Source of the DNA: an uncultured Prevotellaceae bacterium
GTDB lineage: Bacteria; Bacteroidota; Bacteroidia; Bacteroidales; Muribaculaceae
Assembly: GCA_946410125.1 (NCBI GenBank)
Contig: CAMJZF010000010.1
Span: forward strand, 1 to 40,179
Direction of reading: 5' to 3'
DNA length: 40,179 bases
Of this stretch, positions 1 to 14,297 are shown piece after piece. Position 1 is the first letter of the stretch. Every line of letters starts with the position of its first letter. Both the position numbers and the translations under genes were made by a program. The notes below the pieces were generated by a model. That model saw only the letters and a list, made by a program, of their open reading frames with translations, was not told the DNA's origin and ran no database searches.

Positions 1-193
1 AACCTTTGGACCAATAAGCAAGAATACTCCTATAATTCTGAAAGTAACACATGAAGGAGATGATTATGTCTTGTCACATTCCAAATTTACTGGAAGGATT
101 TCTGTCAGTAAGGATAATTCACCTTTTGTATTAAAAGCTGAAGAAACTGCAAATGGGAAACCATTAAATATGTCATATTCAATAGATTTCTAA
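1..193 (+). CDS. C-terminal end of an unknown protein (truncated by window edge)
   Basis: The reading frame is open from base 2 to the TAA at 191-193, giving about 63 residues without an internal stop. The segment has no recognisable domain. It contains a KVTHEGDDYVLSHSKF stretch and alternates charged and beta-prone residues. The composition is AT-rich, like the unknown genes at 1329-2375. The stop overlaps the inferred original stop of the convergent broken gene on the minus strand. The true start and function lie outside the window. I do not recognise the family; coding status is likely because of the uninterrupted frame, but the piece is short. Confidence 0.5.
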   Translation, partial: TFGPISKNTPIILKVTHEGDDYVLSHSKFTGRISVSKDNSPFVLKAEETANGKPLNMSYSIDF

Positions 194-487
194 AGATACA
201 CTTCCATACCATTATTTTCGAGCACGCAAACATCCATCAACTGGCGGATTTGACCGCTGTTTAATAGTTTGAAATGCTGCGTGCCTTTGTAGAAAATTTG
301 TGCAAACCGAACGCAAAAAAGCTTGCTTTTTTGCTGAGGTGCCGCCAAATTTATCTAAATTGTAGCGCAGCGGAATACAATTCTTCCACTCCTGGATTTC
401 TCCCGATTTCGTCCATAGTTTCAGGTCCACCGGGTCACCAGCATTGAGCATCTTGCGGAGTGTTGATATGTGTATCGAATTTGCCAT
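190..487 (-). pseudogene. Small unknown protein gene disrupted by a 64-bp hairpin element
   Basis: The frame starts at ATG 485-487 and reads MANSIHISTLRKMLNAGDPV through a KNCIPLRYN segment. It then enters foreign sequence and ends out of frame at a stop near 212. If exactly 64 nt are removed between about 296 and 359, the frame continues FYKGTQHFKLLNSGQIRQL and ends EVYL at a TAG (190-192). This restores a 77-residue ORF with consistent composition. I recall short Bacteroidales hypothetical proteins with this N-terminal pattern; no function is known to me. 64 is not a multiple of three, so the insertion causes a frameshift. The present gene could still make a 91-residue chimera (212-487), probably without function. 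Confidence 0.7.
293..359. repeat. REP/MITE-like hairpin insertion, about 64 bp
   Basis: The core is a perfect inverted repeat: GCAAAAAAGC (313-322), TT, GCTTTTTTGC (325-334). Outer short inverted ends are AAATTTG near 294-300 and CAAATTT at 346-352. AAA occurs at both junctions (293-295 and 357-359), as expected for a short target duplication. The insertion is deduced because excising 64 nt restores the flanking reading frame. Sequences with a GGCGGCACCTCAGCAAAAAAG-like core are, to my recollection, dispersed in Bacteroidales genomes; that needs a search. No transposase is present. Confidence 0.6.
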
Positions 488-534
488 AGTCTTGAGTTTT
501 CAGTCTTGCATAGTGAGCGGTAGCACAACTAAAC

Positions 535-655
535 CTAAAACAAAAATAGCCGCCCAAGGGCGGCCTTTATTAAAAAAGTAACCAAAAGCCAAAATATTAT
601 GAGCGTGATAATTGTAATTAAGATTTGGAATTGTTCTTATTTAGCTTTTGGTTGC
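535..655 (-). ncRNA. Candidate small structured RNA with terminator
   Basis: On the minus strand a TAACTTTG -7 element (660-667) is followed by a sequence whose first bases, GCAACCAAAAGC (644-655), pair with GCTTTTGGTTAC about 55 nt later (complement of 578-589). This is followed by a GC-rich hairpin (549-564) and a U-rich tail. Together these look like a self-contained transcript of about 115 nt with a closing stem and a rho-independent terminator. No protein frame is apparent in it. Alternatively it is an attenuated leader for the broken gene that starts at 487. It matches no RNA family that I recognise. Confidence 0.35.
549..564. terminator. Rho-independent terminator hairpin
   Basis: GCCGCCC and GGGCGGC form a 7-bp stem with a 2-nt spacer. 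On the minus strand it is followed by TATTTTTGTTTT, so termination is best in that direction. On the plus strand the tail CTTTATT is weaker. Confidence 0.6.
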
Positions 656-659
656 GATG

Positions 660-667
660 CAAAGTTA
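660..667 (-). promoter_or_regulatory. Bacteroidales -7 element (TAACTTTG)
   Basis: The minus-strand octamer TAACTTTG matches the TAnnTTTG consensus. No good -33 element is seen at the usual distance. It would drive the candidate RNA and possibly the broken gene at 190-487. Confidence 0.4.
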
Positions 668-787
668 CAACAAATATTCTTCAATATAAAAAAACTTTAG
701 CAACCCTCATTTCATTCTTGGAGTTTCGGAGATTTCTCAGTAAATTTGCGGTTGTAATCAATTCTCTATCATCTTTTAAGGAGCATC

Positions 788-1111
788 ATGTGTATTATCT
801 CATCAATGGCGTTACTTATAGACTTGTCGTTAAAGTACCAGTACGACGGTATTTTCAACTGGCTTTTGTTGATTGCCATAGGAATATGGGTCGCCAGTCT
901 CGTCTTGTTCATCCAGATGATGCAGAAGCAGAAAGAGATAGAGAGATTCGGTTACCGAAAAAACTCTCCCACACCTGTTGTTTGGTACATCGTCTATTTT
1001 GCGTGTCTGCTCTCGTTTGTATTCTGTTTCGTCTCATTGTTGATGGTTCCCATACAGAAAAAGCGAATTGAGAGCATTCTAAGGATGTTCCTTCAGAGCA
1101 AGAAATTATAA
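788..1111 (+). CDS. Small membrane protein of unknown function, two TM segments
   Basis: The 107-residue ORF begins at ATG 788 with a well placed AAGGAG (778-783), an unusually good ribosome site for this order. Residues about 20-42 (GIFNWLLLIAIGIWVASLVLF) and 66-88 are hydrophobic and should span the membrane, separated by a charged loop containing QKQKEIERFGYRK. The C-terminus is basic. It stands alone between the candidate RNA upstream and a gene-free stretch downstream. A longer overlapping frame from 625 lacks membrane-protein character and is rejected. I do not recognise the family; function is unknown. Confidence 0.6.
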   Translation: MCIISSMALLIDLSLKYQYDGIFNWLLLIAIGIWVASLVLFIQMMQKQKEIERFGYRKNSPTPVVWYIVYFACLLSFVFCFVSLLMVPIQKKRIESILRMFLQSKKL

Positions 1112-1328
1112 GGTGTTGCTAAATTGGCAATGAGATACTCTCATCTCTAATCAATGTTTGTTTGAGATACGGATGAAAAAACGGAGCAGGATGTTACAGA
1201 AAAACGGCGTAAACTGTTACAGTTTTGATGGCGTGCAACTGTGTTTCATGATTTGTTTGAGAGACGATCATAATAATGGCACGCTTTTTGCTATAATAAA
1301 CATATAACTAACTTATAAATATATAATA
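1112..1328. other. Gene-free spacer with a small dyad
   Basis: This 217-nt spacer has no credible ORF. It contains the dyad AAACTG-TTA-CAGTTT (1211-1225) and an imperfect upstream copy of TGTTACAG (1192-1199), which could be an operator. The 3' half is very AT-rich and probably holds the promoter of the gene at 1329, but no clear TAnnTTTG was found. Confidence 0.3.
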
Positions 1329-1973
1329 ATGGAAATTCATTTAGATCAAACAAGTATTAAAAATAACCTTCAGAAGGTTGGATTTGAAATAGCCAAAGGC
1401 CTAGTGGAAACAGATTATATGAATGCAGAATTGTCTTTAATAGGCTTTATACCATATAATGTTTACAAAAACAATCTTCACTTATCTTTGAGTGTGAACT
1501 TAAATGAAAGAATAATAGTCACACCATATCTTGTGAGATTTGATAACAAAAGCTATCCTATGCCTTTGTTTAAAAAGATTGAATTAGCTAAGGATGAGAA
1601 GTATAATATTAATAATGATTTATTAATTGACACAAGACTTGAAGATGTTCCTGATCCTTTTTTGGGGAAGATTATAGACAACGACCCTCTGCATCCTTTA
1701 CCTATACCTGGAGATAAATTTAAGATGTATATAAAAAAGGCATGGCCAAGAAAGAGACCATATTTGGAAAAAAATGAGGATGGTACTTATTACTATATAG
1801 GTCAAGATGGGGAATTATTACTGTCACAAAATATCTTAAATGTATGTTGTATTTCAAATGACTTTGTTTGTCTATGTAGCTATGAGAACAAAGTTACAGG
1901 CTTGCTGAGTTATATAGTTTTGCCTTCAAATGATATAATAAGAAAAGAGTCTATTAAAATATCAAATCTTTGA
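1329..1973 (+). CDS. Unknown protein, 214 aa
   Basis: This intact AT-rich gene starts at ATG 1329 and stops 3 nt before the next gene, so the two are almost certainly co-transcribed. The product has no signal peptide or membrane segment and is predicted soluble. It has beta-rich stretches (LHLSLSVNLNERIIVTPYLV) and a central proline-rich segment (DPLHPLPIPGDKF, about residues 120-132) before a basic KKAWPRKRPY stretch. It contains no motif that I can assign. The low GC relative to flanking genes suggests acquisition by transfer. The pairing with the following ExoX-C-like protein is its best functional clue, but I assign no function. Confidence 0.65.
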   Translation: MEIHLDQTSIKNNLQKVGFEIAKGLVETDYMNAELSLIGFIPYNVYKNNLHLSLSVNLNERIIVTPYLVRFDNKSYPMPLFKKIELAKDEKYNINNDLLIDTRLEDVPDPFLGKIIDNDPLHPLPIPGDKFKMYIKKAWPRKRPYLEKNEDGTYYYIGQDGELLLSQNILNVCCISNDFVCLCSYENKVTGLLSYIVLPSNDIIRKESIKISNL

Positions 1974-1976
1974 TTT

Positions 1977-2375
1977 ATGGCAAACTATTATTATTTCGAA
2001 AGTTTAATATCAAACTTTACTTTTGGTAAACATAAATATGAACCTTTATGTAAAGTTCTGTTATATGATCCTGAGTATATTCATTGGTGTGTTGAAAATA
2101 TTGATACATTTTATATAAATCCAGATATTAAGAGTCAGATAAAAGATTTATTTCCTTTGTTGGATATTAATGATAAATTTGATGGATGTTTTGATTATCC
2201 AGCAGAATTTCAAGATGATGATTTTGTTTATAATAATTACAACGATGATTATAATGAACGTCCAACTTTTGAAAGATACGGAGGATCGTATGCTCAAGAT
2301 GAAATGGGATATAGCGACGATGAAATAGATATTATCTTTGATGGTGACCCTTCAGCATATTGGAATATAGATTAA
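1977..2375 (+). CDS. Small acidic protein with ExoX C-terminal-like motif
   Basis: The 132-residue product begins with FTFGKHKYEPLCKVLLYDP followed by YIHWCVEN (about residues 14-41). This resembles the small exodeoxyribonuclease X C-terminal-like domain, usually FGKYKGK..V...DPxYLxWxLEN. That domain occurs appended to nucleases and as a free-standing module, and is thought to bind DNA or partners. The rest (residues 70-132) is strongly acidic and Tyr/Asn-rich (DDDFVYNNYNDDYNE), so it could mimic nucleic acid or bind a basic partner. No nuclease catalytic domain is present. It is the second gene of a two-gene unit with 1329-1973. Family assignment is from motif resemblance only. Confidence 0.6.
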   Translation: MANYYYFESLISNFTFGKHKYEPLCKVLLYDPEYIHWCVENIDTFYINPDIKSQIKDLFPLLDINDKFDGCFDYPAEFQDDDFVYNNYNDDYNERPTFERYGGSYAQDEMGYSDDEIDIIFDGDPSAYWNID

Positions 2376-2512
2376 TAAATAAAACTGAAGTTCTTGAATA
2401 ACTGAAAACTGTATAGTTTCTATAGCGTAAAAAATAGTTTTAAGCTATGTTTATCTTTGAGTTTTAAGCGAAGGGGTGTTTTGAGTTTTATAAATTATAT
2501 GCTTCTGATAGT

Positions 2513-2719
2513 TCAGAGTAGAAGTTTATGAGCGAGTTGCGGAGCGACATATCCACGTATGGTATCTCGCCATGTTGAAGCAGTTGGATGTATATGCTCA
2601 GGTGGCGAGGTTTTCAAGCTCGCCAGCCAGTAAGCGTTAGCGCCACGTGGCGATAACGTATAGTGGCCATAGCCCAATTTGCGACAGACGTAGAACATCT
2701 GATCCTTTAACTCATCCAC
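2513..2719 (-). CDS. Doubtful small ORF, 68 aa
   Basis: The frame starts at GTG 2717-2719 and encodes a basic, Tyr/His-rich peptide without a known domain. A TATTTTTG -7-like octamer (2743-2750, minus) and a GCAACA/TGTTGC dyad (2724-2743) lie just upstream. The peptide looks more like a remnant than a functional protein, because the surrounding 900 nt also contain a decayed gene. I cannot decide between a small gene and a fragment of a mobile element. Confidence 0.2.
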   Translation of the reverse strand: MDELKDQMFYVCRKLGYGHYTLSPRGANAYWLASLKTSPPEHIHPTASTWRDTIRGYVAPQLAHKLLL

Positions 2720-2915
2720 ATTTGCAACATTTTTATTTGTTGCAAAAATAAAGAAAAAACTGAATTATCGATTATCGATGACTTTTTTTGCAAAAATCAA
2801 TCCATATATAAGTCAATTTAATTATTCAATAATTTGTAAAATAATAAGCACGAGCAACAGGTATATTATGTTAATTGATAGTGCCATGCATGATTGTTTG
2901 ATTTGTGCCAAAATT

Positions 2916-3106
2916 TTATTCTTTGATGATTTCCCAGGGGCTGCCTTTGGTGCGGCGTATGATTCCCTGCTCGGTGAGGCGTGCGGTGATTGATTTGACT
3001 GGCGCTCTGATTTGCCTATCTCACTTGTAACAAACTTTTGTGAGACCGACGGGTTTTCTGTCTCACTCGCAACACGGCAATTTCTTCCAAAGTGCAGTTT
3101 TTGCAC
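2916..3106 (-). pseudogene. Remnant of a winged-helix DNA-binding domain protein
   Basis: On the minus strand the frame reads SVSQKFVTSEIGKSERQ and then shifts. The next frame continues KSITARLTEQGIIRRTKG and ends SPWEIIKE at TAA 2916-2918. Joined by one missing nucleotide near 2998, the text gives SERQxKSITARL, which has the usual shape of a helix-turn-helix followed by a wing (GIIRRTKGSPWEI). Such wHTH tails end several Bacteroidales ATPase or regulator families; I cannot tell which. The frame stays open upstream to about 3160 without a start, so only the C-terminal end remains. This is a decayed or deleted gene. Confidence 0.5.
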
Positions 3107-3139
3107 TTCGCCAGCAGCCCAAGTGCAGAATTTGCACTT
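3090..3139. repeat. Two copies of the dyad AAGTGCA-N5-TGCACTT
   Basis: Perfect 7-bp inverted repeats with 5-nt spacers lie at 3090-3108 and 3121-3139, 31 nt apart (about three helical turns). They are 90-140 nt upstream of the -7 element of the secreted deiminase gene and inside the remnant wHTH gene. They could be operator sites or a coding remnant. Confidence 0.45.
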
Positions 3140-3228
3140 GTAAGAGTCGGGGAAACTACACCTCCTGGTGAAGTGTTAAACAATGTAAACACTCCGAATG
3201 AGAAAGTAAATGTATAGTGCTAAATATG

Positions 3229-3236
3229 TAACTTTG
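3229..3236 (+). promoter_or_regulatory. Bacteroidales -7 element (TAACTTTG) for the deiminase gene
   Basis: TAACTTTG matches TAnnTTTG exactly and lies 28 nt before the ATG at 3265. No clear -33 TTTG is present, which suggests dependence on an activator. Confidence 0.6.
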
Positions 3237-3264
3237 CAGAAAAATCAATTAAATATCTTCGACA

Positions 3265-5358
3265 ATGAAACAACAATTCACCCTGAAATCATGGAGCCGC
3301 ATCGCCAGCCGCTATGCTGGCAAACTGGCTCTGCTATTACTCATCTTAATGATGGGCACAGCTGCACGCGCACAGCATGCAGAAGTTGATAGACAGCGAA
3401 CGCTGAAACCTGGCAGCCTGTCACACCTCCTTCACAAGCACGCCTCCAGTGGCGAGTTTACGCAACCTAATCTGCCCAAAGCGTCAGAGTCGCTCCGCCG
3501 AATGGCCCACGACGCTTCGGGCGAGCCTCTGAACTTCCCCGAGCGTGTGTGGTTTCCCGGCGAGTGGGAGGAGGTGAAGGCCGTGTGCGTCTCACCACTG
3601 TACTTTCACTTAGTACCCGGCTATGAGAATGACAACCGCTATGAGGCCAGCCCCATCGTCGAAGGCTATGGCAGCTATCTATACATGGAGAATCCAAAAG
3701 CCAAGACCGACACCATAGGCTACGGAGCATACATCTCAAAGCTTGACGTCGAGTCAAGCTATGGCATCCCTTTCCTCTACCTCATGGATGGTATCCAGAA
3801 GGCCGGTGCCGAGGCATGGGTACGCATTGAGGCAACCTCCGACGAGCAGAAGATTCGCTCGGCTCTTGAGAGCAGGGGAATGTGTACCGACAAGCTACGC
3901 TTCTTCATCAGCAGCGGCAATGCTTACTGGTTCCGCGACTGCGGTCCCATCTGCTTCTACTATGGCGATGATGACAAGCTGGCCATGCTCGACTTCTTCT
4001 ATGGTCGAAACCGCTCGCTCGATGACCTGCTGCCCTCAATTTTGCACAGGCAGATGAATATTCCCAACTACATCACAAACGTGGTGTGGGAAGGTGGCAA
4101 CTGCCTCGTTGACGGTACGGGAGGACTGATTACCTCGTCGGCCGTATATGCCAACAACAGCTACACTTTTGGCCCTGTTGTTTGGGACGGCATCGACTAT
4201 TCCACCATCAGCTATATCGAGAAGCCAGCCCTTAGCCAGAGCGAGGTGAACGAGGCTCTGAGCGGGATGCTTGGACAAGGTAACTACCGTGTGCTGACAC
4301 GCCTGGCACATGACGGCGGCACAGGCCACGTGGACCTCTATGCCGATGCCATCGACGAGAACGGATTCCTCTTCGCCCAGATGCCTGAGCGTTACAACAC
4401 CTGGGAGGACTATGGTGTGGTAAATCAAAACGTAGACCTCATGTACAATGAGAAGAGCTTCTGGAATGCCAACTACTACGACATGGGACGACTGCCCTTC
4501 CCCTCGATGAACGACGGCAGCGACTTCGCCAGCGAGACAGAATATGGCGAGAACTATTCGCGCACCTATGCCAACCACCTGTTGGTCAACAACTACATCC
4601 TGCAACCTTGTTTCTCGCCCGTGGGTGAGGACGGCATGCCTACTGCGGAGTGGGACCGCGCCAACATTGAGGCAATGAAGAAACTCTATCCCGGCTATAC
4701 CTTCTACTGCGTCGACATGCGCACGTTCGACGGCTCGGGCGGCTCCATACACTGTGTCACCAAGCAGATACCTGCCGACAACCCTATCCGCATCTTGCAC
4801 TTTCACCTGCACGGAAACGTGAGCATGGGAGACCTGACTGAGGTTCCTTTCAGGGCTATCATCACCAACAAGAGCGGCATCAAGAACGCACAGCTGGTCT
4901 ACCGCGTAGGTGATGGCGAATGGCAGACATCGGAGCTGACTGCCAACGGCAACAGCTGGTCGGGCAAGGTGGCTGCCAGCAACTTCACTAACGGACAGCA
5001 GGTGGACTACTACATCCAGGCTACCTCTAATAATGGCAAGACAATCACCAAGCCCATCAATGCGGCTCACGGCGGCTACTTCAGCTTCACGCCCGACAAC
5101 ACGGTGGCTTACAACGACGATGTGTTTGACTTTGGCATAGAACCCATAGCCAATGACAAAATCACTTTCGTCCTTGACACTAAATATCTGACCGAGGACA
5201 CCAGCACCGATTCGCCAACCGGCATCAGCGAGGTTTACACAGCAGGTCAGAATAACGTTGACGACGGGTGGTACACCATCACTGGCTGCCGATTGAATAC
5301 CAAGCCCAGCACTCCCGGCATCTACCTGCATCAGGGCAAGAAGGTTGTCATAAAATAA
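3265..5358 (+). CDS. Secreted peptidylarginine deiminase-like protein (PPAD type)
   Basis: This is a 697-residue exported enzyme of the Porphyromonas-type peptidylarginine deiminase/agmatine deiminase family, which hydrolyses the guanidino group of arginine to give citrulline. A signal peptide covers residues 1-36 (cleavage after AARA). The catalytic domain (about 92-510) keeps the expected residues: Asp225 in WFRDCGP, His355 and Asp357 in GTGHVD, and the nucleophile Cys497 in GSGGSIHC. The pair Arg248/Arg250 in YGRNRSLDD matches in position the RxR that binds the carboxylate of C-terminal arginine in PPAD, to my recollection. An Ig-like domain follows (about 515-615). The end (WYTITGCRL to KKVVIK) looks like a type IX secretion sorting tail. 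Gut commensal origin and all key residues intact make activity likely; peptide versus agmatine specificity is inferred. Confidence 0.85.
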   Translation: MKQQFTLKSWSRIASRYAGKLALLLLILMMGTAARAQHAEVDRQRTLKPGSLSHLLHKHASSGEFTQPNLPKASESLRRMAHDASGEPLNFPERVWFPGEWEEVKAVCVSPLYFHLVPGYENDNRYEASPIVEGYGSYLYMENPKAKTDTIGYGAYISKLDVESSYGIPFLYLMDGIQKAGAEAWVRIEATSDEQKIRSALESRGMCTDKLRFFISSGNAYWFRDCGPICFYYGDDDKLAMLDFFYGRNRSLDDLLPSILHRQMNIPNYITNVVWEGGNCLVDGTGGLITSSAVYANNSYTFGPVVWDGIDYSTISYIEKPALSQSEVNEALSGMLGQGNYRVLTRLAHDGGTGHVDLYADAIDENGFLFAQMPERYNTWEDYGVVNQNVDLMYNEKSFWNANYYDMGRLPFPSMNDGSDFASETEYGENYSRTYANHLLVNNYILQPCFSPVGEDGMPTAEWDRANIEAMKKLYPGYTFYCVDMRTFDGSGGSIHCVTKQIPADNPIRILHFHLHGNVSMGDLTEVPFRAIITNKSGIKNAQLVYRVGDGEWQTSELTANGNSWSGKVAASNFTNGQQVDYYIQATSNNGKTITKPINAAHGGYFSFTPDNTVAYNDDVFDFGIEPIANDKITFVLDTKYLTEDTSTDSPTGISEVYTAGQNNVDDGWYTITGCRLNTKPSTPGIYLHQGKKVVIK

Positions 5359-5510
5359 TATATTCCAGTTTCACAAATTCCCAAATCCCTGTTTTAACCT
5401 ATTACATAATTGTTTTTGAACCAGCGAAACTTGGATAATACTTTTTAAAGAAGACGAACAAGCTGGCCGTCAAAGCAGCCAGTATGAAATTAAAAGTATA
5501 ATAGAATGTT

Positions 5511-5549
5511 GCCCCGCAACGCAGATTTAAAGCGCGCTGCGGGGCATTT
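5511..5549 (+). terminator. GC-rich hairpin, probable terminator
   Basis: GCCCCGCA (5511-5518) pairs with TGCGGGGC (5538-5545), with extra GCGC pairing inside, and is followed by ATTTTCTG. It is about 150 nt downstream of the deiminase gene. The rest of 5359-5712 holds no credible gene; a GGGC-TTAC-GCCC mini-hairpin is at 5618-5629. Confidence 0.5.
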
Positions 5550-5712
5550 TCTGTCGTAAACAGAGCCACAATCCTTGTTTTAGTGGAAGTGGGATGGTGA
5601 GTCGTGGGAGCGGGCTTACGCCCCAACTGTACCTACCCTACCCTGTACGTCTTCGCCACCTAATACCAAATCAAAAAACAGGGAAGAAATTAAAAATTAA
5701 ATGGAGGATTAA

Positions 5713-5742
5713 TTGATGTGATTGTTTTTTTTCATACATTTG
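5713..5742 (+). promoter_or_regulatory. Promoter for the LRR surface protein
   Basis: The -7 element TACATTTG (5735-5742) is preceded by TTG at 5713-5715 with a 19-nt gap, the normal Bacteroidales spacing. It lies 55 nt before the ATG at 5797. Confidence 0.65.
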
Positions 5743-5796
5743 CAGTGAAATTGCAAATTACATTTTAATAAACCTATACTTTTTAAATTCAAAAAA

Positions 5797-7707
5797 ATGA
5801 AAAAAAACTACTTCTTAACAGCCGTGGCAGCATTGCTTGCCATAGGTATGCAAGCTCAGACGACCTTCACTTCGGGTCAAATCACTTACACCGTGACCGG
5901 TGAAAACACAGTAGAATGTAGTGGAGTAGACAATGCCGCTACAAGTATTGAAATTCCCCCCACCGTTGAGAATGATGGCGTTACCTATAATGTTAATGCC
6001 ATTGGCGAAGCTGCTTTCCAATGGAGCAATCTCACCTCGGCGGTAATACCCGGCTCGGTTGAAACAATCAAGGCCAAAGCTTTCTATTACAGCGACCTTA
6101 CCAGCGTGACCTTTGGTGACGGCGTAAAATATATTGGCGACTATGCCTTCTCGGGCTTAGGCATTTCCACTCTCATTCTCCCTAACAGCGTGGAATGGAT
6201 AGGCAACAGTGCGTTCTACAATCAGCACAATTCCAGCTACCAGCCTTGCTTGACACAGGTAGACCTGGGCAATGGGGTTAAACACATTGGTAATGCTGCA
6301 TTCTACAAACTGGCTGCCACCAGCATTGAAATTCCTGCTTCGACCGAAGAGATTGGTGCCACATGCTTCCTCCTCAGCAAGCTCGAGACCGTAACCCTAA
6401 ACGAGGGTTTAAAGAAGATTGGCGATGGCGCATTCAACAACTGTACTGCCCTTAGCAGCATCAACCTGCCCTCGACACTTGAGGAGATTGGCATGGAGGC
6501 TTTCCTTAACGACAAGGCCCTCACCGCCATCAACATTCCTGCCGGCGTTACAACCATTGGAGAGAGTGCCATAGCCAATACTGCCGTGAGCACAATCACC
6601 CTGGATCCCGCCAACACCTCATTTGTAATGGACAACGGCGTGCTCTACACTGCCGACAAGACATTGCTTCAAATGGCACCAATGACCGGCGTTAGCACCC
6701 ATGTGGTAGACGAGAACTGCCTGGGAATAGTGGGCGGAGCCTTCTGGGGCAGCGAACTGCAGAGCATCACACTTAACAACAAACTGACTGCCTTAGGCTA
6801 CGCTTGCTTCGAGAGCAGCAATCTGAGCGAAATCAATCTTGATGGACCTGAGAGCATCAACTTTATAGATGAGCAGGTATTTGCCGACACCAAGCTTACC
6901 GAGGTCGTTCTTCCTTCTAACCCTTATTACGTGAACGACGGTCAATTTGCCAGCTGCACTTCACTTACCTCACTCACCATCCCCGATGGCATTACCGAGA
7001 TTTATCCCCACGCTCTCAATAACTGCACCGCACTGCAGACTATCACCTGCCTTAGCAAAGTTCCTCCCACAATCATGGACTATTATGAGGACTATGACAT
7101 GCCGTTCTACAATAGCAATGAAAACGCTATTCTCTATGTTCCAAAGGGCAGCAAGAGTGCCTATCAAGCTAACGAATGGAGTTACTACACAATCGTTGAG
7201 CAGGCTCAGCCACTTGAGGTTGTTTCAACCAACCCAATGACTGGTTCCCAAGCCGAGACTTACCAGACCTACTCGTTTGAAGTAACCTTCAACCAGCCAG
7301 TTACCGTAGCTCTAAACACTCCCGATGTAAAAATCTACGTTGGCGAAATTGGCGGTTCTGAAACACTTAGCCCTCTCGACAGCTGGCATGCAACTTTGAA
7401 CAACGAGACTACACTGAACGTATGGGGCAGCGACTACGACGGCTACGTTGACTATTTCACAAGTGACAAGAACAAAACTTATTATGTTGTTATCCCTGCT
7501 GGAGTTGTAACTTGTGAAGCCGGTTCAAATGATGAAATCATTATCATTCTCAATCCTGACACCACATCGATTGAGACTCTGAGCAACAACAGCACTGCAA
7601 CCATTGAGGCCATCTATAACATCAATGGTCAGCAAGTGCGTGAGATGCAAAAGGGCATCAACATTGTTCGCTACAGCGACGGTACTGTGAAGAAAATCAT
7701 GAAATAA
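5797..7707 (+). CDS. BspA-like LRR_5 secreted surface protein
   Basis: The 636-residue protein has a signal peptide (residues 1-20, cleavage near GMQAQ). It then has about a dozen leucine-rich repeats of the Treponema/BspA type (about residues 40-460), each with an IP.SVE.IG..AF core such as IPGSVETIKAKAFYYSDL. A beta-sandwich segment (about 470-590, starting LEVVSTNPM) resembles Ig-like bacterial surface domains. The last 40 residues (IYNINGQQV to KKIMK) look like a type IX secretion sorting tail. BspA-family proteins act in adhesion to host matrix and in coaggregation; that role is inferred here. It follows the secreted deiminase but has its own promoter and a strong terminator, so it is probably a separate unit. 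Confidence 0.85.
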   Translation: MKKNYFLTAVAALLAIGMQAQTTFTSGQITYTVTGENTVECSGVDNAATSIEIPPTVENDGVTYNVNAIGEAAFQWSNLTSAVIPGSVETIKAKAFYYSDLTSVTFGDGVKYIGDYAFSGLGISTLILPNSVEWIGNSAFYNQHNSSYQPCLTQVDLGNGVKHIGNAAFYKLAATSIEIPASTEEIGATCFLLSKLETVTLNEGLKKIGDGAFNNCTALSSINLPSTLEEIGMEAFLNDKALTAINIPAGVTTIGESAIANTAVSTITLDPANTSFVMDNGVLYTADKTLLQMAPMTGVSTHVVDENCLGIVGGAFWGSELQSITLNNKLTALGYACFESSNLSEINLDGPESINFIDEQVFADTKLTEVVLPSNPYYVNDGQFASCTSLTSLTIPDGITEIYPHALNNCTALQTITCLSKVPPTIMDYYEDYDMPFYNSNENAILYVPKGSKSAYQANEWSYYTIVEQAQPLEVVSTNPMTGSQAETYQTYSFEVTFNQPVTVALNTPDVKIYVGEIGGSETLSPLDSWHATLNNETTLNVWGSDYDGYVDYFTSDKNKTYYVVIPAGVVTCEAGSNDEIIIILNPDTTSIETLSNNSTATIEAIYNINGQQVREMQKGINIVRYSDGTVKKIMK

Positions 7708-7726
7708 TAAACCAACCCTAACCACA

Positions 7727-7759
7727 CAACCCTGGGCTATCGGTTCAGGGTTGTTTTTT
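7727..7759 (+). terminator. Rho-independent terminator of the LRR gene
   Basis: CAACCCTG (7727-7734) pairs with CAGGGTTG (7746-7753) across an 11-nt loop and is followed by six T residues. Confidence 0.85.
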
Positions 7760-7847
7760 CTAATATTTTCTGGATAAAGTATTTAGATTCTTATTTATCA
7801 CCACATTGATTATCTCGATCGTTGGACTTAAAACCTTTTCTTAAAAG

Positions 7848-8339
7848 ATGAATCAACCATATTTTAGAGCTATGCGCCGCTCGCGTCAACAACTCACGCA
7901 AGACAGAGCCCTTGAAATTCTCCAGGAGGCAACGTCGGGGGTACTGGCTTTGCTTGGCGACTATGATTATCCCTATGCAGTTCCCCTCAGTTATGTATAT
8001 AGCGAAGGTAAACTTTACTTCCACAGCGCTATGGCCGGTCACAAGATAGATGCCATCAGCAAGTGCGATAAGGCATCGTTCTGTGTCATTGATAAAGATG
8101 ATGTTCACCCCGAGAAGTATACCACCTTTTTTCGGAGTGTAATCGCTTTTGGCAAAATTCACATCATCGAAGATGAGCAAGAGAAATTGGAAACAGCGCG
8201 CAAGCTTGGGAAACGCTATAATCCCAACGATGACGAATCCTTGCAAAAAGAATTGGACAGCGGTCTTTCCCGAATGCACATGTTACGCTTTGACATTGAA
8301 CATCTTACCGGGAAAGAAGCTATTGAACTTGTAAAATAG
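7848..8339 (+). CDS. NimA-like pyridoxamine 5'-phosphate oxidase-family protein
   Basis: The 163-residue protein belongs to the FMN-binding split-barrel superfamily, close to Nim-type 5-nitroimidazole resistance proteins. The N-terminal FRAMRRSRQQL, the SGVLALLGDYDYPYAVPLSYVY strand pair, and the FHSAMAGHKIDAI stretch are typical, and the length fits. These proteins bind FMN or haem and are soluble; some reduce nitroaromatics, but most chromosomal members have no proven substrate. It stands alone after the LRR terminator with a short leader and no evident TAnnTTTG. It is followed by the interrupted MBL-fold gene. Drug resistance cannot be claimed from sequence. Confidence 0.85.
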   Translation: MNQPYFRAMRRSRQQLTQDRALEILQEATSGVLALLGDYDYPYAVPLSYVYSEGKLYFHSAMAGHKIDAISKCDKASFCVIDKDDVHPEKYTTFFRSVIAFGKIHIIEDEQEKLETARKLGKRYNPNDDESLQKELDSGLSRMHMLRFDIEHLTGKEAIELVK

Positions 8340-8451
8340 ATTCAGCTCGGGAAATGATATGGATTGAAATAAATCTTTAATTCTTAGATCTAAATTAGTA
8401 CGCATTTGAGTTAGGTAAACGACTTGTTGAGAAAGCCAAAGAACAAGAAAA

Positions 8452-9288
8452 ATGAAAATACATGTTTTACACACTGGCGAGGTGCGAGTCTCGCCCCACT
8501 TGCCTTTCGGCGGTGACAACTGAAGTTTATTGAAAGCCTCTGGCTTGACAACTCCCAAAAAAGACTGGATTTGGCTGCCAGTGTGCTGCTATTTGATTGA
8601 GCACCCAAAGGGCAGGATTCTTGTTGACACGGGGTGGCATCGCGACATGTCGCCCAATGGAGAATATGACAAGAAAGCTCAAATCAAGAGTTTAGGTTCA
8701 TGGATTCTCTACCATGTCAATCAAGGCCGCATCGCCGCTGGCGAAGCCATAGATGAGCAACTTGCAGCAATGGGACTCAAAGGCAGTGACATCGACTATG
8801 TACTACTCTCCCACCTTGACTGTGACCATGCCAACGGCTTGCGAGCAGTAGCCGATGCCAAGCACATTCTTTGTGCCCCCGAAGAGGTGGAGTGCGACCG
8901 AAAGAATGGTTTAGTGCGTTATCAAAAGAAATGGTGGCAAAGTGTTGATTTGCGCACATTTGAGTGGAACGGCACCGATGGCCCCGCATGCAAGTCATTT
9001 GACTTGTTTGGGGATGGCACTGTCGTGATGATAAACATACCCGGTCATTGCGATGGATTGTGTGCAGTAAAACTCCTAAACAAAGATGGCAGATTTGTAC
9101 TTCTCTTTGCCGATGGTGGCTACGCAACAAAGTCTTGGAAGGAAATGATTACAAGTGGTATTTCTCTTGATAAGAAGATGCAGCGCAAATCGCTGGAATG
9201 GATTCGTGAGCAGTCGCTTGACCCTAACTGTATTGAGTCACTGGCGACACACGATACCGCTATTGTGCCACACACAATTGAATTGTGA
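8452..9288 (+). pseudogene. MBL-fold hydrolase (lactonase-like) with in-frame TGA
   Basis: From ATG 8452 the frame reads MKIHVLHTGEVRVSP to GGDN, then a TGA (8521-8523), and continues SLLKASGLTTPKKDW in the same frame to TGA 9286-9288. Without the stop the product would be 278 residues. It carries the metallo-beta-lactamase zinc motif as HLDCDH (about residues 121-126), a later GHCDG His and an FADGG Asp. This is the N-acyl-homoserine-lactonase-like branch (YtnP/AiiA-like). From memory, homologues have Cys at the TGA position. A TTG at 8530 could restart translation but would lack the first beta strand. Explanations are a nonsense mutation, a sequence error, or less likely recoding; no convincing selenocysteine hairpin follows. 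Confidence 0.7.
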
Positions 9289-9304
9289 CAGATAAGACCA
9301 TCAC

Positions 9305-9334
9305 ATAAATAACTATAAATAACTATAAATAACC
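9305..9334. repeat. Three tandem copies of a 10-mer (ATAAATAAC[T/C])
   Basis: The units at 9305-9314, 9315-9324 and 9325-9334 are identical except for the last base. They sit between two convergent genes just before a long hairpin. No function is evident. Confidence 0.7.
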
Positions 9335-9380
9335 CAACTCCATAACACTGCAATTATATCTCGGCAATGTTATGGAGTTG
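9335..9380. terminator. Long hairpin between convergent genes
   Basis: CAACTCCATAACA and TGTTATGGAGTTG form a perfect 13-bp stem with a 20-nt loop. The position between stops at 9288 (plus) and 9408 (minus) fits a bidirectional terminator, although the T-runs are weak (TAAGTTTTAG on plus, GGTTATTTAT on minus). Confidence 0.6.
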
Positions 9381-9407
9381 TAAGTTTTAGATAGAAAATG
9401 ACAATTG

Positions 9408-9863
9408 TTACCAGTTGAGTGGCTCTTGAAGGATTGTGCCATCTACCATTGGACTGTCTTTCTCGGTGAACGGGGTGCCATTGTATTGCACACAAAGCAT
9501 GGTCAAGTTCTCGCTGCCTGTGTTCTTCAAAGCACGCTTGCCTTCGGGTGAAACCCTTATTACACTTCCCTCTGTCACAGGCACTATCTCACCATCTACC
9601 TGATACTGGCCATCTCCACTCAAGATAAAATAAAGTTCCTCGTGTGTCTTATGAGTGTGAAGAAATCCGCTGTCCTGACCGGGAACGAGGGTTTGAAACG
9701 AGAACTCTCCCGCGGCAGCACCTACTGCTTGTCCGCCAAATACTTTGCCTTGCAGCGTGAAGTCGGGCCCCATGGGCAGTTCATATCCTATAATCTCACT
9801 TAGTTTGCCAAAATTGGCTACTGTAAAATTCTTGCCTTGCGCAATTGTTTCAATCTTCTTCAT
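9408..9863 (-). CDS. Cupin-domain protein
   Basis: The 151-residue protein is a single-domain cupin. The first cupin motif is present as FLHTHKTHEELYF, giving probable metal ligands His69, His71 and Glu75 or Glu76. The second motif lies around GSVIRVSPEGKRALKN. It starts 14 nt after the HxlR regulator stop, so the two form an operon. Small cupins beside HxlR regulators often serve in redox or aldehyde stress or small-molecule turnover, but no substrate can be read from the sequence. The protein is soluble and cytoplasmic. Confidence 0.85.
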   Translation of the reverse strand: MKKIETIAQGKNFTVANFGKLSEIIGYELPMGPDFTLQGKVFGGQAVGAAAGEFSFQTLVPGQDSGFLHTHKTHEELYFILSGDGQYQVDGEIVPVTEGSVIRVSPEGKRALKNTGSENLTMLCVQYNGTPFTEKDSPMVDGTILQEPLNW

Positions 9864-9877
9864 TTTTTAATAACTGT

Positions 9878-10258
9878 TTAATGATTTCTATTAGATGAAT
9901 ATTTTTTCCTGTCATTGAGAATGTCGGCGAGATTATCCAAAGCCCAATCAATAAGGTTGTTGATGTGTGGCATCAGCGATTGCGCCCTCTCGGTGATGCT
10001 ATATTCCACACGGGGTGGAATCTCGGCATAAGCATGACGCTCCACCAGTCCATCGGCTTCAAGATTTTTGAGAGCCACCGTCAGCATCTTTTGGGAAATG
10101 TCGGGTATTGCCGCAAGAATGTCGGAATAACGCATAGGCTGTTGTTTGCCGTCAAGCGTAATTAGTATGAGCATAGACCATCGGTCACTAATGCGTGACA
10201 GAATATTGCGTATGGGGCAATCGGGATAATGAGGGTCTACAATAATATCTCGTAACAT
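9878..10258 (-). CDS. HxlR-family transcriptional regulator
   Basis: The 126-residue winged-helix protein has the family pattern: an N-terminal Cys in DCPIRNIL (Cys14), the DRWSMLIL helix, the recognition region ISQKMLTVALKNLEADGLV, and the wing PPRVEYSITE. HxlR proteins are dimeric DNA-binding regulators that commonly sense aldehydes, electrophiles or redox state through the conserved Cys and repress their own operon. Here it precedes the cupin gene by 14 nt. A perfect TAGTAACT/AGTTACTA dyad overlaps its promoter, with a second TTAGTAA/TTACTAA pair further upstream, so autoregulation is likely. Confidence 0.9.
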   Translation of the reverse strand: MLRDIIVDPHYPDCPIRNILSRISDRWSMLILITLDGKQQPMRYSDILAAIPDISQKMLTVALKNLEADGLVERHAYAEIPPRVEYSITERAQSLMPHINNLIDWALDNLADILNDRKKYSSNRNH

Positions 10259-10282
10259 CTATTGTCTTATGAATAATTATAT

Positions 10283-10403
10283 TAGTAACTATTCGTTCGT
10301 TTCGGTTGCAAAGTTACTATTATCACGGCAAACGACAAAGAACATGACAAAAAGTTTGTCTCACACTTTTACGTTAGTAATGGGAATATCAGTCGATTAC
10401 TAA
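10283..10403. promoter_or_regulatory. Promoter and probable HxlR operators
   Basis: The minus-strand -7 element TAACTTTG is at 10309-10316. It is overlapped by the right half of a dyad TAGTAACT (10283-10290) / AGTTACTA (10312-10319). A second pair TTAGTAA (10374-10380) / TTACTAA (10397-10403) lies upstream. The shared TAGTAA half-site in four positions suggests cooperative binding by the regulator. Confidence 0.55.
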
Positions 10404-10696
10404 AGCACTATTTATACATTATTAATATTTACACAAAATAAATCTTTATCTTTTTTCACAAAGGTGCCGCAAGCCAAGAGCAGCATAATGCTTACATTAA
10501 TATTGGTTCAGCCCACATTAGCAGATTTATTTTTTCGGGGAAAAGTTACAAAATAATATCTCGAACTCTCTACATGTGCATGTCTCTGCGTATTGGATAT
10601 AGGTCGCTCACGTTTCGCCATAAATGAGAAAGCCGCCTTTGTGGGGCGGTTCTCTCGGTGGTTGGTGCAGTGCTCTCGATGTTTAAGATTGCTAAA
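10404..10696. other. Gene-free region with a terminator hairpin
   Basis: I see no credible gene. GAGAA...CCGCC (10626-10636) pairs with GGCGG-TTCTC (10645-10654) with a small bulge. On the minus strand it is followed by ATTTATGG, a modest terminator for the SDR gene that ends at 10697. The rest is AT-rich with no recognisable element. Confidence 0.45.
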
Positions 10697-11541
10697 TCAT
10701 CCTAATTTGTATTGTCCTGTGCGTATGCTGGCAATAACACCACCATCAATAAGCAGGTCGGTTCCCGTGATAAATTTGGCATGTTCGCCAAGCAGGAACG
10801 CTGCCGCCTCAGCAATCTCATCACTTGTTCCAGTGCGCTTTACAGCACTTGCGTCAATCATTCGCTGATAGCCTTCACCATTGGCATTGAATTCGTCAAA
10901 AGCAAGCGGAGTGACAATCACTCCTGGGCTGATGGTGTTGATGCGTGCCCCACGCTCGCGCCAAGTGGTGGCTGCTGCACGCTGTGCCTGCAGGTGGTTC
11001 ATGCGCTTGGCAATCATATAGGCAAAACCTGAATTCTGCATTGCCACCTCCTTGACAAACGGCACTTCGGCAAGTTGCTCGGTTGGGGTATTGCAAGTTG
11101 CAGTTCCACCTCATTGGGTATCGGGTACATATAGGCAGCCTGACTGCTGACAATAAGACCGGCTCCTCCCTGGGCCATCACCTGTCCAAAAGCATCAACA
11201 GCATAGCCCGTGCCCAACATGTCAAGGTTGACAATATGCTCTGGTGTCGCCTGGTTGGGCGATGCTCCTGCCGTGTCGATGAAATACATTACCGGGCCCA
11301 ATTCTGAGGCACGTTGGGCGAATGCCTTAACACTCTCTTTCTCCAAGGCGTTCACCTTCATCGCAACCACATCATAACCACTGTGTTTGAAGTCATTTGA
11401 CACTCTATCAAGAGCCTTTTCGCTCACATCACCAAGCAGGATTCTTTTACCGGCACCTATGCGGCGCACAATGGCGGTGCCCATGCTGCCAGCACCCAGC
11501 AGTGCAATGACTGCTTTTCTCTCGTTTCTGTCAAATATCAT
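10697..11541 (-). pseudogene. SDR-family oxidoreductase, frameshifted
   Basis: The N-terminal part (11541 to about 11090) has the nucleotide-binding GAGSMGTA (residues 16-23) and the GLIVSSQAAYMYP strand. The C-terminal part, in another frame from about 11085 to 10697, has the catalytic YMIAK (YxxxK), the RINTISPGVIVTPL segment and the GTDLLIDGG end. One missing base near 11086-11093 explains the break: the second frame continues TPTEQLAEVPFVKEVAMQN. Restored length is 281 residues, normal for a classical short-chain dehydrogenase. It lies 15 nt after the acetyltransferase gene and shares its promoter. As it stands, the catalytic Tyr and the Rossmann fold are on separate frames, so it is probably inactive unless the base is a sequencing error. 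Confidence 0.8.
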
Positions 11542-11556
11542 ATTTGTTATTTTTGT

Positions 11557-12084
11557 TTAATCTACATTTTTAATAAACTTGGCTGGATTTCCGCCTACAA
11601 TCGTGTTGGCAGCGACATCTTTAGTCACGACAGCACCTGCTGCCACAACTGCATTCTCCCCCACAGTAACTCCGGGCAGAATGGTGGCACCCGCACCAAT
11701 CCACGCATTGCGGCAGACGCGCACAGGTTTACACAGCAACAATTGGTGGTCATGCAAGTCGTGATTGTTGCTGATAAGTTGCACATTGGCTGCTATCATC
11801 ACATCGTCTTCAATGGTGATGCCGCCCCGCGACATCATCAGGCAGTCGGGCATAATCATCACATTATTACCTATCTTCACACGGTCGAAACACACGCCCT
11901 TTAGCGGTGGCATTACCATGCTGCCGTCTCCGATATTGCCGTTAAACAGTTCCTTTACCAGATTATTATACTCGTCGGTATAGGGCATGGTGTGATTGAT
12001 GCTGAATACCAATTTCACGTCTCTCATGCCGCGTTCCATTTCACTGGGCGTAGTCTTGCGAGGGTCTACTATAAATGCTTCCAT
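11557..12084 (-). CDS. Hexapeptide-repeat O-acetyltransferase (maltose/galactoside type)
   Basis: The start at 12084 (MEAFIVDPRKTTPSEMERG) is preferred over the longer ORF from 12153, because a TAAATTTG promoter element lies between them at 12118-12125. The 175-residue protein has an N-terminal helix pair and then a left-handed beta-helix of hexapeptide repeats. These include the active-site region QLISNNHDLHDH and the typical end AWIGAGATILPGVTVGENAVV and VGGNPAKFI. Such enzymes are trimeric, cytoplasmic and use acetyl-CoA to acetylate sugars. It is followed by the SDR pseudogene 15 nt away. Sugar specificity is not predictable. Confidence 0.88.
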   Translation of the reverse strand: MEAFIVDPRKTTPSEMERGMRDVKLVFSINHTMPYTDEYNNLVKELFNGNIGDGSMVMPPLKGVCFDRVKIGNNVMIMPDCLMMSRGGITIEDDVMIAANVQLISNNHDLHDHQLLLCKPVRVCRNAWIGAGATILPGVTVGENAVVAAGAVVTKDVAANTIVGGNPAKFIKNVD

Positions 12085-12117
12085 GTCTATATTTTTTTTT
12101 ATTTTATTTTTACAGCG

Positions 12118-12181
12118 CAAATTTACAACTACTTTCATTATCATCAGTTTCACAAATTACTTCAACCTTTTCACAAATTAC
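12118..12181 (-). promoter_or_regulatory. Promoter with two direct repeats for the acetyltransferase operon
   Basis: The minus-strand -7 element TAAATTTG is at 12118-12125. Upstream lie two exact copies of GTAATTTGTGAAA (complement of 12148-12160 and 12169-12181), spaced by 21 nt, two helical turns. No good -33 element is visible, so an activator binding the repeats is likely. Confidence 0.5.
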
Positions 12182-12270
12182 ACATTTTGCTCACACTCTA
12201 AAAACAAACAACTATGAAAAAACTGCAAGACACCTCAAGTTCATAAACCCTGGGGAAGATCTATTTACCG

Positions 12271-12303
12271 CAAAAAAATCCCTGGCGATTTCTCGTCAGG
12301 GAT
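12271..12303 (-). terminator. Rho-independent terminator of PPi-phosphofructokinase
   Basis: On the minus strand ATCCCTG-ACGA pairs with TCG-CCAGGGAT and is followed by seven T residues (complement of 12271-12277). It lies about 85 nt beyond the stop of the gene. Confidence 0.85.
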
Positions 12304-12387
12304 CAGCAAGCTGTAAAAAAGGTAAAAATGATACACAACTCTCACCCGACATCAGTCTTTCAACATGATATCATTAGTGAGCGTGCT

Positions 12388-14061
12388 TTATTTTCCTCCT
12401 TGCTCGTAGTAAAGAGTACAAGAAGTCTGGTCGCACATCTCTGGTGAACCAAAGTACTGAATTGGTCCAGGATAGATGTAGCAAGTTTCCTTAGCCCAAA
12501 GCTCACGGCTATTGGCAAACACCTTAAAGGGCTTACCTTTAAGATCGACGAGAGCTTTCTTGATGACGGGCTTTTGCTTACCGTTACGGTGCTCCATGTT
12601 CATCATCATGGTGATGGGAATACCACCTGCCTCCCACTCCGACGCGGGCTTTGCAAGATGACGAATCGACGACATGTAGCCAGTAGCACCGGCATTGATG
12701 AGCATTGTGGCATTGAAGCCAAGTGCATAGCAGTAATCGGCATCAAAGTTTGATGGGTCGGCGCATCGTCCTTCATAACCAAAGAAATGATGCTGAGTCT
12801 TGAATTTGCCAACAAACCTTCCTTCATCTTTCATCTTCTGAAGCTTCTTGGCTACCATCTCGCTAAGCAGCTTCTCGGTCTCAATGAGTGAGAGCTGAAC
12901 GTTGCCGTGAGGGTCACGGTCAAGAGTAAGCTGACGAGCCACCGCTGGAGGCAAAGACTCAAAGCGATCCTTGTTCTCTTGACTAAGTTTCGAAAGAACA
13001 AATTCACGCTGCTCATCAAGATGCAGTTTCGAGAAATTGGGATTGGCGGCAAGAATGTCGTTGAGCTCGTCAATAAGCTTCTTCATGGCAGGCATAAACT
13101 CCACTAGACCTTCGGGAATAAGCACTGTACCATAGTTCTTACCCTTAGCGGCACGAGCTGCCACCACGCGGGCAATGTCATTAACAACATCGTCGAGATA
13201 CATGTTCTTGGCAGCCACTTCCTCACCAATGACACAGTAGTTGGGCTGAGTTTGCAATGCACACTCAAGAGCAATGTGAGAAGCCGAACGCCCCATCAGC
13301 TTGATGAAGTGCCAGTACTTCTTGGCACTGTTGCAGTCACGCTCCACGTTGCCAATAAGCTCACTGTAAAGTTTGGTAGCAGTATCGAAGCCAAAAGATA
13401 TCTCAACCTTTTCATTCTTCAAGTCGCCATCGATAGTCTTTGGAACACCTATTACCTGCACGGGCACCTTCTTGTTCTTATAGTACTCGGCAAGAACAGC
13501 GGCATTGGTGTTACTGTCGTCACCACCAATAATAACAATAGCACGGATATTAAGCTTATTGATAATCTCCAAGCCTTTCTCAAATTGCTCAGGCTTTTCA
13601 AGTTTGGTGCGTCCCGAGCCAATCATATCAAAGCCACCGCAATTGCGATACTCGTCAATGATTTCGCGGGTAAGCTCCTTGTAATCATGCTCGATAAGGC
13701 CTTCTGGGCCCATCAGGAAACCATAGAGACGGCTTTTCTCATTAATAGCCTTGATGCCGTCAAAGATACCACAAATCACATTGTGACCACCAGGAGCCTG
13801 ACCACCCGAGAGGATTACACCAACATTGCAAGGCTTATCACCATGCATTGACTGGGCTTCATCATCTCTAACAAAAGTCAACTCAGGGAGACCATAAGTG
13901 TTGGGAAACAATTTCTTGATATCCTCCTGATTACCAGCCGACTCTGTAGGATTGCCAACAACAGCCTTCACTGGCCCCTGCAATGCAGCAGGAAGTTTAG
14001 GCTGATAGGCCGAACGCAATTGTTGAAGAATACTTTTCTGCTTGAATTTCAGAATATCCAT
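12388..14061 (-). CDS. pfp: PPi-dependent 6-phosphofructokinase (long form)
   Basis: This 557-residue enzyme reversibly converts fructose 6-phosphate to fructose 1,6-bisphosphate using pyrophosphate. Motifs in order are GVILSGGQAPGGHN (81-94), IIGGDDSNTNA (about 177-187), VPKTIDGDLKN (206-216) and LMGRSASHIALE (255-266). The second Asp in GGDDS and the Lys in PKTIDGD mark PPi rather than ATP as phosphoryl donor. The length fits the long (plant beta/Bacteroidetes) clade. It is monocistronic, with a near-consensus GAACTTTG -7 element (minus, 14107-14114) and a good terminator. It is cytoplasmic and glycolytic, and unrelated to the polysaccharide genes that start divergently. Confidence 0.95.
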   Translation of the reverse strand: MDILKFKQKSILQQLRSAYQPKLPAALQGPVKAVVGNPTESAGNQEDIKKLFPNTYGLPELTFVRDDEAQSMHGDKPCNVGVILSGGQAPGGHNVICGIFDGIKAINEKSRLYGFLMGPEGLIEHDYKELTREIIDEYRNCGGFDMIGSGRTKLEKPEQFEKGLEIINKLNIRAIVIIGGDDSNTNAAVLAEYYKNKKVPVQVIGVPKTIDGDLKNEKVEISFGFDTATKLYSELIGNVERDCNSAKKYWHFIKLMGRSASHIALECALQTQPNYCVIGEEVAAKNMYLDDVVNDIARVVAARAAKGKNYGTVLIPEGLVEFMPAMKKLIDELNDILAANPNFSKLHLDEQREFVLSKLSQENKDRFESLPPAVARQLTLDRDPHGNVQLSLIETEKLLSEMVAKKLQKMKDEGRFVGKFKTQHHFFGYEGRCADPSNFDADYCYALGFNATMLINAGATGYMSSIRHLAKPASEWEAGGIPITMMMNMEHRNGKQKPVIKKALVDLKGKPFKVFANSRELWAKETCYIYPGPIQYFGSPEMCDQTSCTLYYEQGGK

Positions 14062-14240
14062 ATTACTACCTATTAAATATTTTTTAAGTATTACCTTATT
14101 TTTTTTGCAAAGTTCGTAAAAATTGAGATTTGTTGCAACAAGAAAATATTTAAAAAATCTTTATAGGGCATGTATACCGATTGCATAAAGTTTTTTTTCT
14201 CAAGCAACAAGACTCGTAAAGTGCGGCAAATACCAATTTA

Positions 14241-14272
14241 TTTGACAAATCCAGATTAAATGTGTAAATTTG
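14241..14272 (+). promoter_or_regulatory. Promoter for the first flippase gene
   Basis: TTTG (14241-14244) and TAAATTTG (14265-14272) are separated by 20 nt, an ideal Bacteroidales promoter, 25 nt before ATG 14298. Confidence 0.75.
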
Positions 14273-14297
14273 CGACTCATAAACTAACAATAAACGA

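Follow-up and report, generated by a model that had tools for sequence, protein, structure and literature searches.

Does a gut commensal export an enzyme that citrullinates proteins in the manner of PPAD, the peptidylarginine deiminase of Porphyromonas gingivalis? The question is raised by a gene in a 40,179-nucleotide stretch of DNA (hereafter the window) from an uncultured Prevotellaceae bacterium (GenBank assembly GCA_946410125.1, contig CAMJZF010000010.1), in which an earlier note had read a secreted enzyme of the PPAD type, so far best known from Porphyromonas. Protein citrullination by a bacterial member of the family has been studied well in PPAD, and the family name, Porphyromonas-type peptidyl-arginine deiminase, spans relatives of several kinds. 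"Best known from Porphyromonas" holds for the biochemistry, but the genes are spread more widely: pPAD genes have already been reported to be more widespread than thought (PMC8826395), and a very large set of bacterial PAD homologues is described in PMC7864903. A 2025 review mentions homologues in further Porphyromonas species (PMC12599369), and according to a 2026 review a peptidylarginine deiminase is encoded by strains of P. copri; going by their titles, the references behind this statement concern P. copri or dysbiosis in arthritis (PMC12959208). A search of open-licence literature gave, among the matches listed, no paper on the group of proteins treated here as clade C, to which the window protein belongs, although absence is not proven thereby.

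New in this study is the sorting of the exported relatives into three motif classes. The full PPAD grip on the substrate was found in class A, which has many members from the genus of the window, and not in class B or C. The sorting narrows a vague claim, that commensals citrullinate, to a few proteins open to testing, and it cautions against calling the window protein a PPAD.

Coding sequence and domain organization

The open reading frame runs from an ATG to a stop codon with no internal stops and is intact (Table 1). Its 697-aa product matched PF04371 (PAD_porph) of Pfam with 99.9 bits against a curated cut-off of 25 (E 2.2e-28). A signal peptide (MKQQ...LALLLLILMMGTAARAQ) was read by eye, and the region downstream of the catalytic domain aligned with the Ig-like region of PPAD; both features had been described in the earlier note and were found again here. 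The protein of a sister species (L069) is 92% identical to the window protein. In this one pair, dN/dS calculated with our own script (Nei-Gojobori) was 0.13 for the whole gene and 0.08 for the catalytic part, values that suggest, from this single pairwise comparison, purifying selection on the gene.

Table 1 Features of the deiminase locus in the window
Feature	Position	Strand	Basis or conservation
Promoter-like element TAACTTTG	3229..3236	+	Kept in sister locus L121
CDS of clade-C PAD_porph protein (697 aa)	3265..5358	+	ORF reading and Pfam
Signal peptide, residues 1-37, ending ...TAARAQ	3265..3375	+	By-eye reading
Pentein (guanidino-group modifying) catalytic domain, ~residues 94-505	3544..4779	+	Pfam 193-503, PPAD alignments
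Asp225 (PPAD Asp130)	3937..3939	+	79/79 clade C
Arg248-Asn-Arg250 (R248, PPAD R152; R250, PPAD R154)	4006..4014	+	R250 79/79, R248 5/79 clade C
Glu276, EGGN motif as in agmatine deiminase (Thr180 in PPAD)	4090..4092	+	79/79 clade C
Gly351-Gly352, place of PPAD Tyr233 (substrate-closing loop)	4315..4320	+	Position 352: G 77, S 2 (n = 79)
His355 and Asp357 (PPAD His236, Asp238)	4327..4335	+	79/79 and 78/79 clade C
Asn437 (PPAD Asn297)	4573..4575	+	79/79 clade C
Cys497 (PPAD Cys351 nucleophile)	4753..4755	+	79/79 clade C
Ig-like domain, ~residues 506-612	4780..5100	+	Aligns with PPAD C-terminal Ig-like region
Probable short T9SS sorting tail, residues 653-697, GISEV...GIYLHQGKKVVIK	5221..5355	+	Similar tails elsewhere in genome

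The closest solved structure by sequence was P. gingivalis PPAD (6i0x; E 4.7e-16, ~62 bits in phmmer); the second-best other solved protein in the single-sequence search was 1xkn, a "putative peptidyl-arginine deiminase" (1.1e-6). When a profile of five clade-C members was compared with solved structures, PPAD was again at the top (1.6e-27), followed by 6nib (4.1e-15) and 1xkn (4.8e-15), and chains named agmatine deiminase appeared only at 6e-11 or worse. The window protein is a real, intact and conserved member of the deiminase family that is probably exported.

Active-site residues aligned with PPAD

All equivalences between the window protein and PPAD given here are from sequence alignment, with PPAD residues numbered after PMC4487231. 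The catalytic residues proposed earlier, Asp225, His355, Asp357 and Cys497, were found at these positions and aligned with the catalytic set of PPAD; the Asn ligand about which the earlier note had asked is Asn437. Arg248 and Arg250, proposed as the counterpart of the carboxylate-binding arginines, did fall over PPAD R152 and R154: in phmmer, FFYGRNRSLDD of the window protein falls on FIYNRPRPNDD of PPAD, and profile-profile alignment to PPAD-type relatives gave the same register. PPAD Tyr233 was placed on Gly352 by one alignment and on Gly351 by the profile-profile alignment, and the position of the PPAD gatekeeper Cys239 is Leu358.

Shared with P. gingivalis PPAD (4YT9, 5AK7, 6I0X) are the PAD_porph pentein domain, the Asp-His-Asp-Asn-Cys set, the R154 equivalent, the Ig-like domain, probable T9SS-type export and, in the window protein, the R152 equivalent. 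Unlike PPAD, the window protein has no Tyr233, has Leu for Cys239 and Glu for Thr180, and carries a loop one residue longer and a 22-residue insert after residue 298; in addition, the R152 equivalent is not conserved across clade C.

Three motif classes among exported relatives

The sorting gave 49 ORFs in class A, 26 in class B and 79 in class C (clade C), 77 of the last being distinct; L069 and L121 are one identical coding sequence within the clade-C rows. Since the clade-C filter required W-x-R-D-type and FYY-like motifs and used no other positions, invariance at W222, R224, D225 and near 231-233 is partly by choice. Six of the 80 named loci (L132, L134, L137, L142, L148 and L193) yielded no ORF under the pattern filter and were left out, and L070 (genome G253; 89% over part, open frame 229 aa) was omitted from the clade-C counts.

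The classes differed mainly at the positions with which PPAD grips its substrate. At the R152 position, Arg was present throughout class A (49/49) and class B (26/26) and in 5 of the 79 clade-C ORFs, which mostly have Pro. Arg occupied the R154 position in every ORF of the three classes (154/154), as against Met in L038, the AguA-like protein of the window's genome. The Tyr233 position was Tyr in 49/49 of class A, Gly (23), Leu (2) or Asn (1) in class B, and Gly (77) or Ser (2) in clade C; that of Cys239 was Cys in class A (49/49), Met in class B (26/26) and Leu in clade C (79/79). At the Thr180 position, Thr predominated in class A (48, with 1 Ala) and class B (25, with 1 Ala), and Glu was found in all 79 clade-C ORFs. 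Even in the ten-member subclade of the window protein, the R248 position was R, T, D, E, W, P or Y, so it is not as strictly constrained as in classes A and B.

The five catalytic positions were retained in 78-79 of the 79 clade-C ORFs. In L129, Asp357 is replaced by Asn, and this protein is perhaps a dead copy. L129 and L144 are two clade-C copies sharing contig ONLW01000028.1.

Class A has the same family, export logic and order as the window protein, and partly the same genus, but differs in having the full PPAD set D R R Y H D C N C. These nine residues (D130, R152, R154, Y233, H236, D238, C239, N297 and C351) were complete in 48/49 class A ORFs, namely 29/30 from genus-mates and 19/19 from elsewhere in the order; the exception, L040, is truncated by the end of its contig, before the catalytic Cys. 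L043, from a genus-mate, matched PPAD with 351 bits over almost the entire chain and has a dockerin type I domain (49.4 bits) at its C-terminus; another member, L201, carries a Por_Secre_tail there. For PPAD activity in the genus, the class A proteins of genus-mates are stronger candidates than the window gene. The PPAD-type ORFs of genus-mates are L043:1192-2811 and 29 more (L040-L042, L044-L050, L071-L083 and L085-L090). The window's own genome, 84% complete, yielded no class A protein. The proposition that PPAD-type proteins occur only in Porphyromonas does not agree with the sequences of the class A ORFs in genus-mates and elsewhere in the order.

Class B (e.g. L094, which carries a Por_Secre_tail, and L099) resembles the window protein in having the R248 and R250 equivalents and no Tyr233 (Gly in 23/26). 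It is unlike clade C in its TGG motif (25/26), its HHIDMH-type loop, the Met at the place of Cys239 and its place apart in the tree.

Tree of the relatives

The tree comprised 78 hand-chosen rows, with PPAD itself left out, and was built by a quick method that carried a warning of long branches meeting. Support was 99 for clade C, 100 for class A, 78 for class B and 98 for classes A and B together. Nine AguA-type rows were set off at 100, far from clade C. In this best tree, clade C separates from the PPAD-type proteins as a branch of its own; in the AU test, clade C and class A as sisters gave p 0.081, a sister relation that was not rejected.

Probable function and alternatives

In PPAD, the substrate carboxylate is gripped by R152, R154 and Y233 (PMC4487231). 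According to the same source, R152 is indispensable and an Ala mutant of R154 is ~30% active; R154 also binds the preceding peptide carbonyl, seemingly the main reason for the preference for peptidylarginine over free arginine; and Ala or Ser mutants of Cys239 have ~8% activity. Clade C as a whole lacks the Arg-Tyr pair (R152, Y233) with which PPAD clamps a free C-terminal carboxylate, but keeps, as R250, the counterpart of R154, which in PPAD contacts the peptide carbonyl just ahead of the target arginine. Because the clamp is missing and the R154 equivalent is present, we infer recognition of peptides with a looser need for a C-terminal arginine. In our judgment the chances are about even that the window protein is an exported deiminase of peptide arginine without the strict C-terminal-Arg clamp of PPAD. 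Such a deiminase would be exported by the T9SS and probably anchored on the cell surface, where the Cys-His-Asp pentein mechanism would convert the guanidinium of arginine in peptides to citrulline and ammonia. Its physiological role, at a guess, may be to gain nitrogen or ammonia from dietary or microbial peptides in the herbivore gut. Two points run counter to this reading: the window protein itself has R248, its own R-x-R being complete in contrast to the clade-wide argument, and its EGGN and GGTGH motifs are nearer to those of the genome's agmatine deiminase (EGGS, DTDAH) than to those of PPAD. The 22-residue insert could provide other substrate contacts.

The earlier reading, a PPAD-type exo-enzyme citrullinating C-terminal arginines with R248/R250 as the carboxylate clamp, is upheld as far as the PAD_porph domain, the catalytic residues, the export layout and the alignment of the R-x-R are concerned, but not as to the PPAD type. 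In its favor are the alignment of R248/R250 over R152/R154, PPAD as the top solved match, the PPAD-like layout with an Ig-like domain and an export tail, and the AU test, in which a grouping of clade C with class A was not rejected. Against these stand the variability of R248 among the nearest relatives (Arg in 5/79 of clade C), as opposed to its invariance in classes A (49 ORFs) and B (26 ORFs), the missing Tyr233 and Cys239, the separate place of clade C in the tree (99, against 98 for A and B together), and a match to PPAD of ~62 bits, compared with 351 bits for the class A protein L043. Clade C is without key parts of the PPAD substrate grip, so that the same job as that of PPAD is not to be assumed, and we consider the exo-enzyme unlikely for the window protein. 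A secreted deiminase of a small guanidine (agmatine, free arginine or another guanidino compound), in effect an exported agmatine-deiminase-like enzyme, is conceivable though improbable. The EGGN motif with Glu276 and the GGTGH motif, which lie nearer to AguA than to PPAD (TGGN, Y-I-x-H), could imply a small substrate, and the model for agmatine deiminase AguA, TIGR03380, gave a weak match (3.7e-11). That match, however, reached 42.6 bits against an equivalog cut-off of 381.8; a strong AguA-like PF04371 protein, L038 (393.8 bits), is already present in the genome and is of ordinary length; R250 is present in 79/79 clade-C ORFs and is Met in L038; and the nine AguA-type rows stand apart in the tree. 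L038 shares with the window protein the pentein core, EGG[NS] and Cys-His-Asp, but has 350 aa and no signal peptide (by eye), Ig-like domain, tail or R154 equivalent. Agmatine deiminase as the identity of the window protein was rejected because of the TIGR03380 score and the tree.

That the protein is a catalytically dead or binding-only paralogue, as the D357N change of L129, with its second copy L144 on the same contig, might suggest, is very improbable in view of the catalytic positions kept in 78-79/79 ORFs and the dN/dS of 0.08 in the catalytic part. A bolder proposal, which we regard as doubtful, is that clade C, together with class B, represents an unrecognised exported kind of bacterial PAD that acts on internal arginines and with which herbivore-gut Bacteroidales citrullinate intact proteins in the extracellular space, with a PAD4-like combination of two arginines and a small residue reached independently in the window protein and class B. 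By published residue equivalences, R372/R374/S468 of human PAD4 correspond to R248/R250/G352, PAD4 having Ser where PPAD has Y233 (PMC4487231). Human PADs differ in being calcium-dependent (PMC12599369), and PAD4 has another domain make-up (PMC8826395). PAD4 has both arginines, so the grip by the R154 equivalent only, as in most of clade C, is without a characterised model here.

Distribution and hosts

In a search of 101 genomes of the genus (query residues 91-620, E 1e-8), orthologues beyond the window's own were found in G251 (95%) and G253 (89%, partial) only. Another 34 genomes of the genus matched through a different protein, mostly of ~545 aa; of these, 30 were read and carried class A ORFs, and the unread ones were G259, G272, G290 and G317. 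At 1e-9, 125 of 393 genomes of the order matched, mostly with ORFs of 500-1000 aa, and 19 of 20 stretches hand-picked from these matches contained class A ORFs, while L218 gave no ORF.

A scan of genome contigs, queried with five members of the clade, confirmed 134 relatives, of which the best 80 were named; all 80 are from Bacteroidota. Among the record titles of these best 80 of 134, 31 refer to herbivore hosts or gut sites and 49 give no host; a human is mentioned in none. Clade C thus appears to be found largely in herbivore-gut bacteria, and the relevance to autoimmunity against citrullinated proteins that had been suggested for the window protein is left unsupported by these titles.

Probable export by the T9SS

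The T9SS-like tail described earlier is backed by similar tails at 13 further places in the genome, six of which were read and all end their ORF (6/6), but no curated model (Pfam, NCBIfam) calls the tail of the window protein. Por_Secre_tail was called in 41/53 aligned proteins, the window protein not being among them. Short CTDs of 40-55 aa with Ile at +2 are described for P. intermedia (PMC11969387), and the window tail, with 45 aa and Ile at +2 of the likely cut, fits this description. The window's genome encodes SprA (2729.8 bits, cut-off 200) and three PorU-type C25 domains of 367-378 bits, which is below the full-protein cut-off of 420, the domain alone being used. Because SprA, the PorU-type domains and a repeated tail are present, the window deiminase is likely exported by the T9SS.

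The PorU-type C25 sortase domains lie in tandem at G000:C20:15574-25195 (L223, L225 and L224), in open frames of 1140-1177 aa. ORFs matching the dockerin tail of L043 at E 0.01 were also observed, with 50 matches in the window's genome (G000), 62 in G251 and 85 in G253; those listed match mostly the tail itself and occur beside T9SS-type tails.

Gene neighborhood and upstream elements

No operon was seen around the window gene, and clustering of the neighbors of the 80 named loci revealed none common to clade C; genes recurred lineage-wise only. The window deiminase gene is preceded by small ORFs, one of which has an ExoX-like motif at its C-terminus, and is followed by genes for a BspA-type leucine-rich-repeat protein and then for pyridoxamine-oxidase-like and metallo-beta-lactamase-fold proteins. 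Megablast of window positions 1-25000 against a plasmid collection, run for plasmid origin, gave no match.

Comparison of window positions 1-16000 with the sister locus L121 (UBA2751) showed shared DNA at 3153-5404 (90.7%) and in short pieces at 191-442. The 2.7-kb stretch between them (443-3152), with ORFs at 788-1111, 1329-1973 and 1977-2375 (the last ExoX-like at its C-terminus), has no counterpart in L121 and may be an insertion in the window or a deletion in L121. After the deiminase gene, the sister locus has an exported aminopeptidase-like gene (L121:8205-9794), presumably of the M28 type, in place of the BspA-type protein of the window.

The promoter-like element TAACTTTG ends 28 bases 5′ of the ATG and fits the consensus of the Bacteroidetes -7 element, TAnnTTTG. 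Before it, at 3173-3192, lies an imperfect palindrome, GTGTTAAACAATGTAAACAC, which is also kept in L121. With up to 3 mismatches allowed, it had one match in the window compared with 0.01 expected, and it is a possible candidate operator.

One neighbor cluster, absent from the window, was observed at 28 of the 80 clade-C loci (e.g. L131:4928-5944 and L141:5015-5896), and its ORF is one that we take to encode a beta-keto acid cleavage enzyme (Kce/BKACE type). A motif filter for this ORF retained 27 loci, none of them among L121-L128. Where its position was assigned, 25 loci have the ORF upstream in the same orientation, with a median gap of 16 bases.
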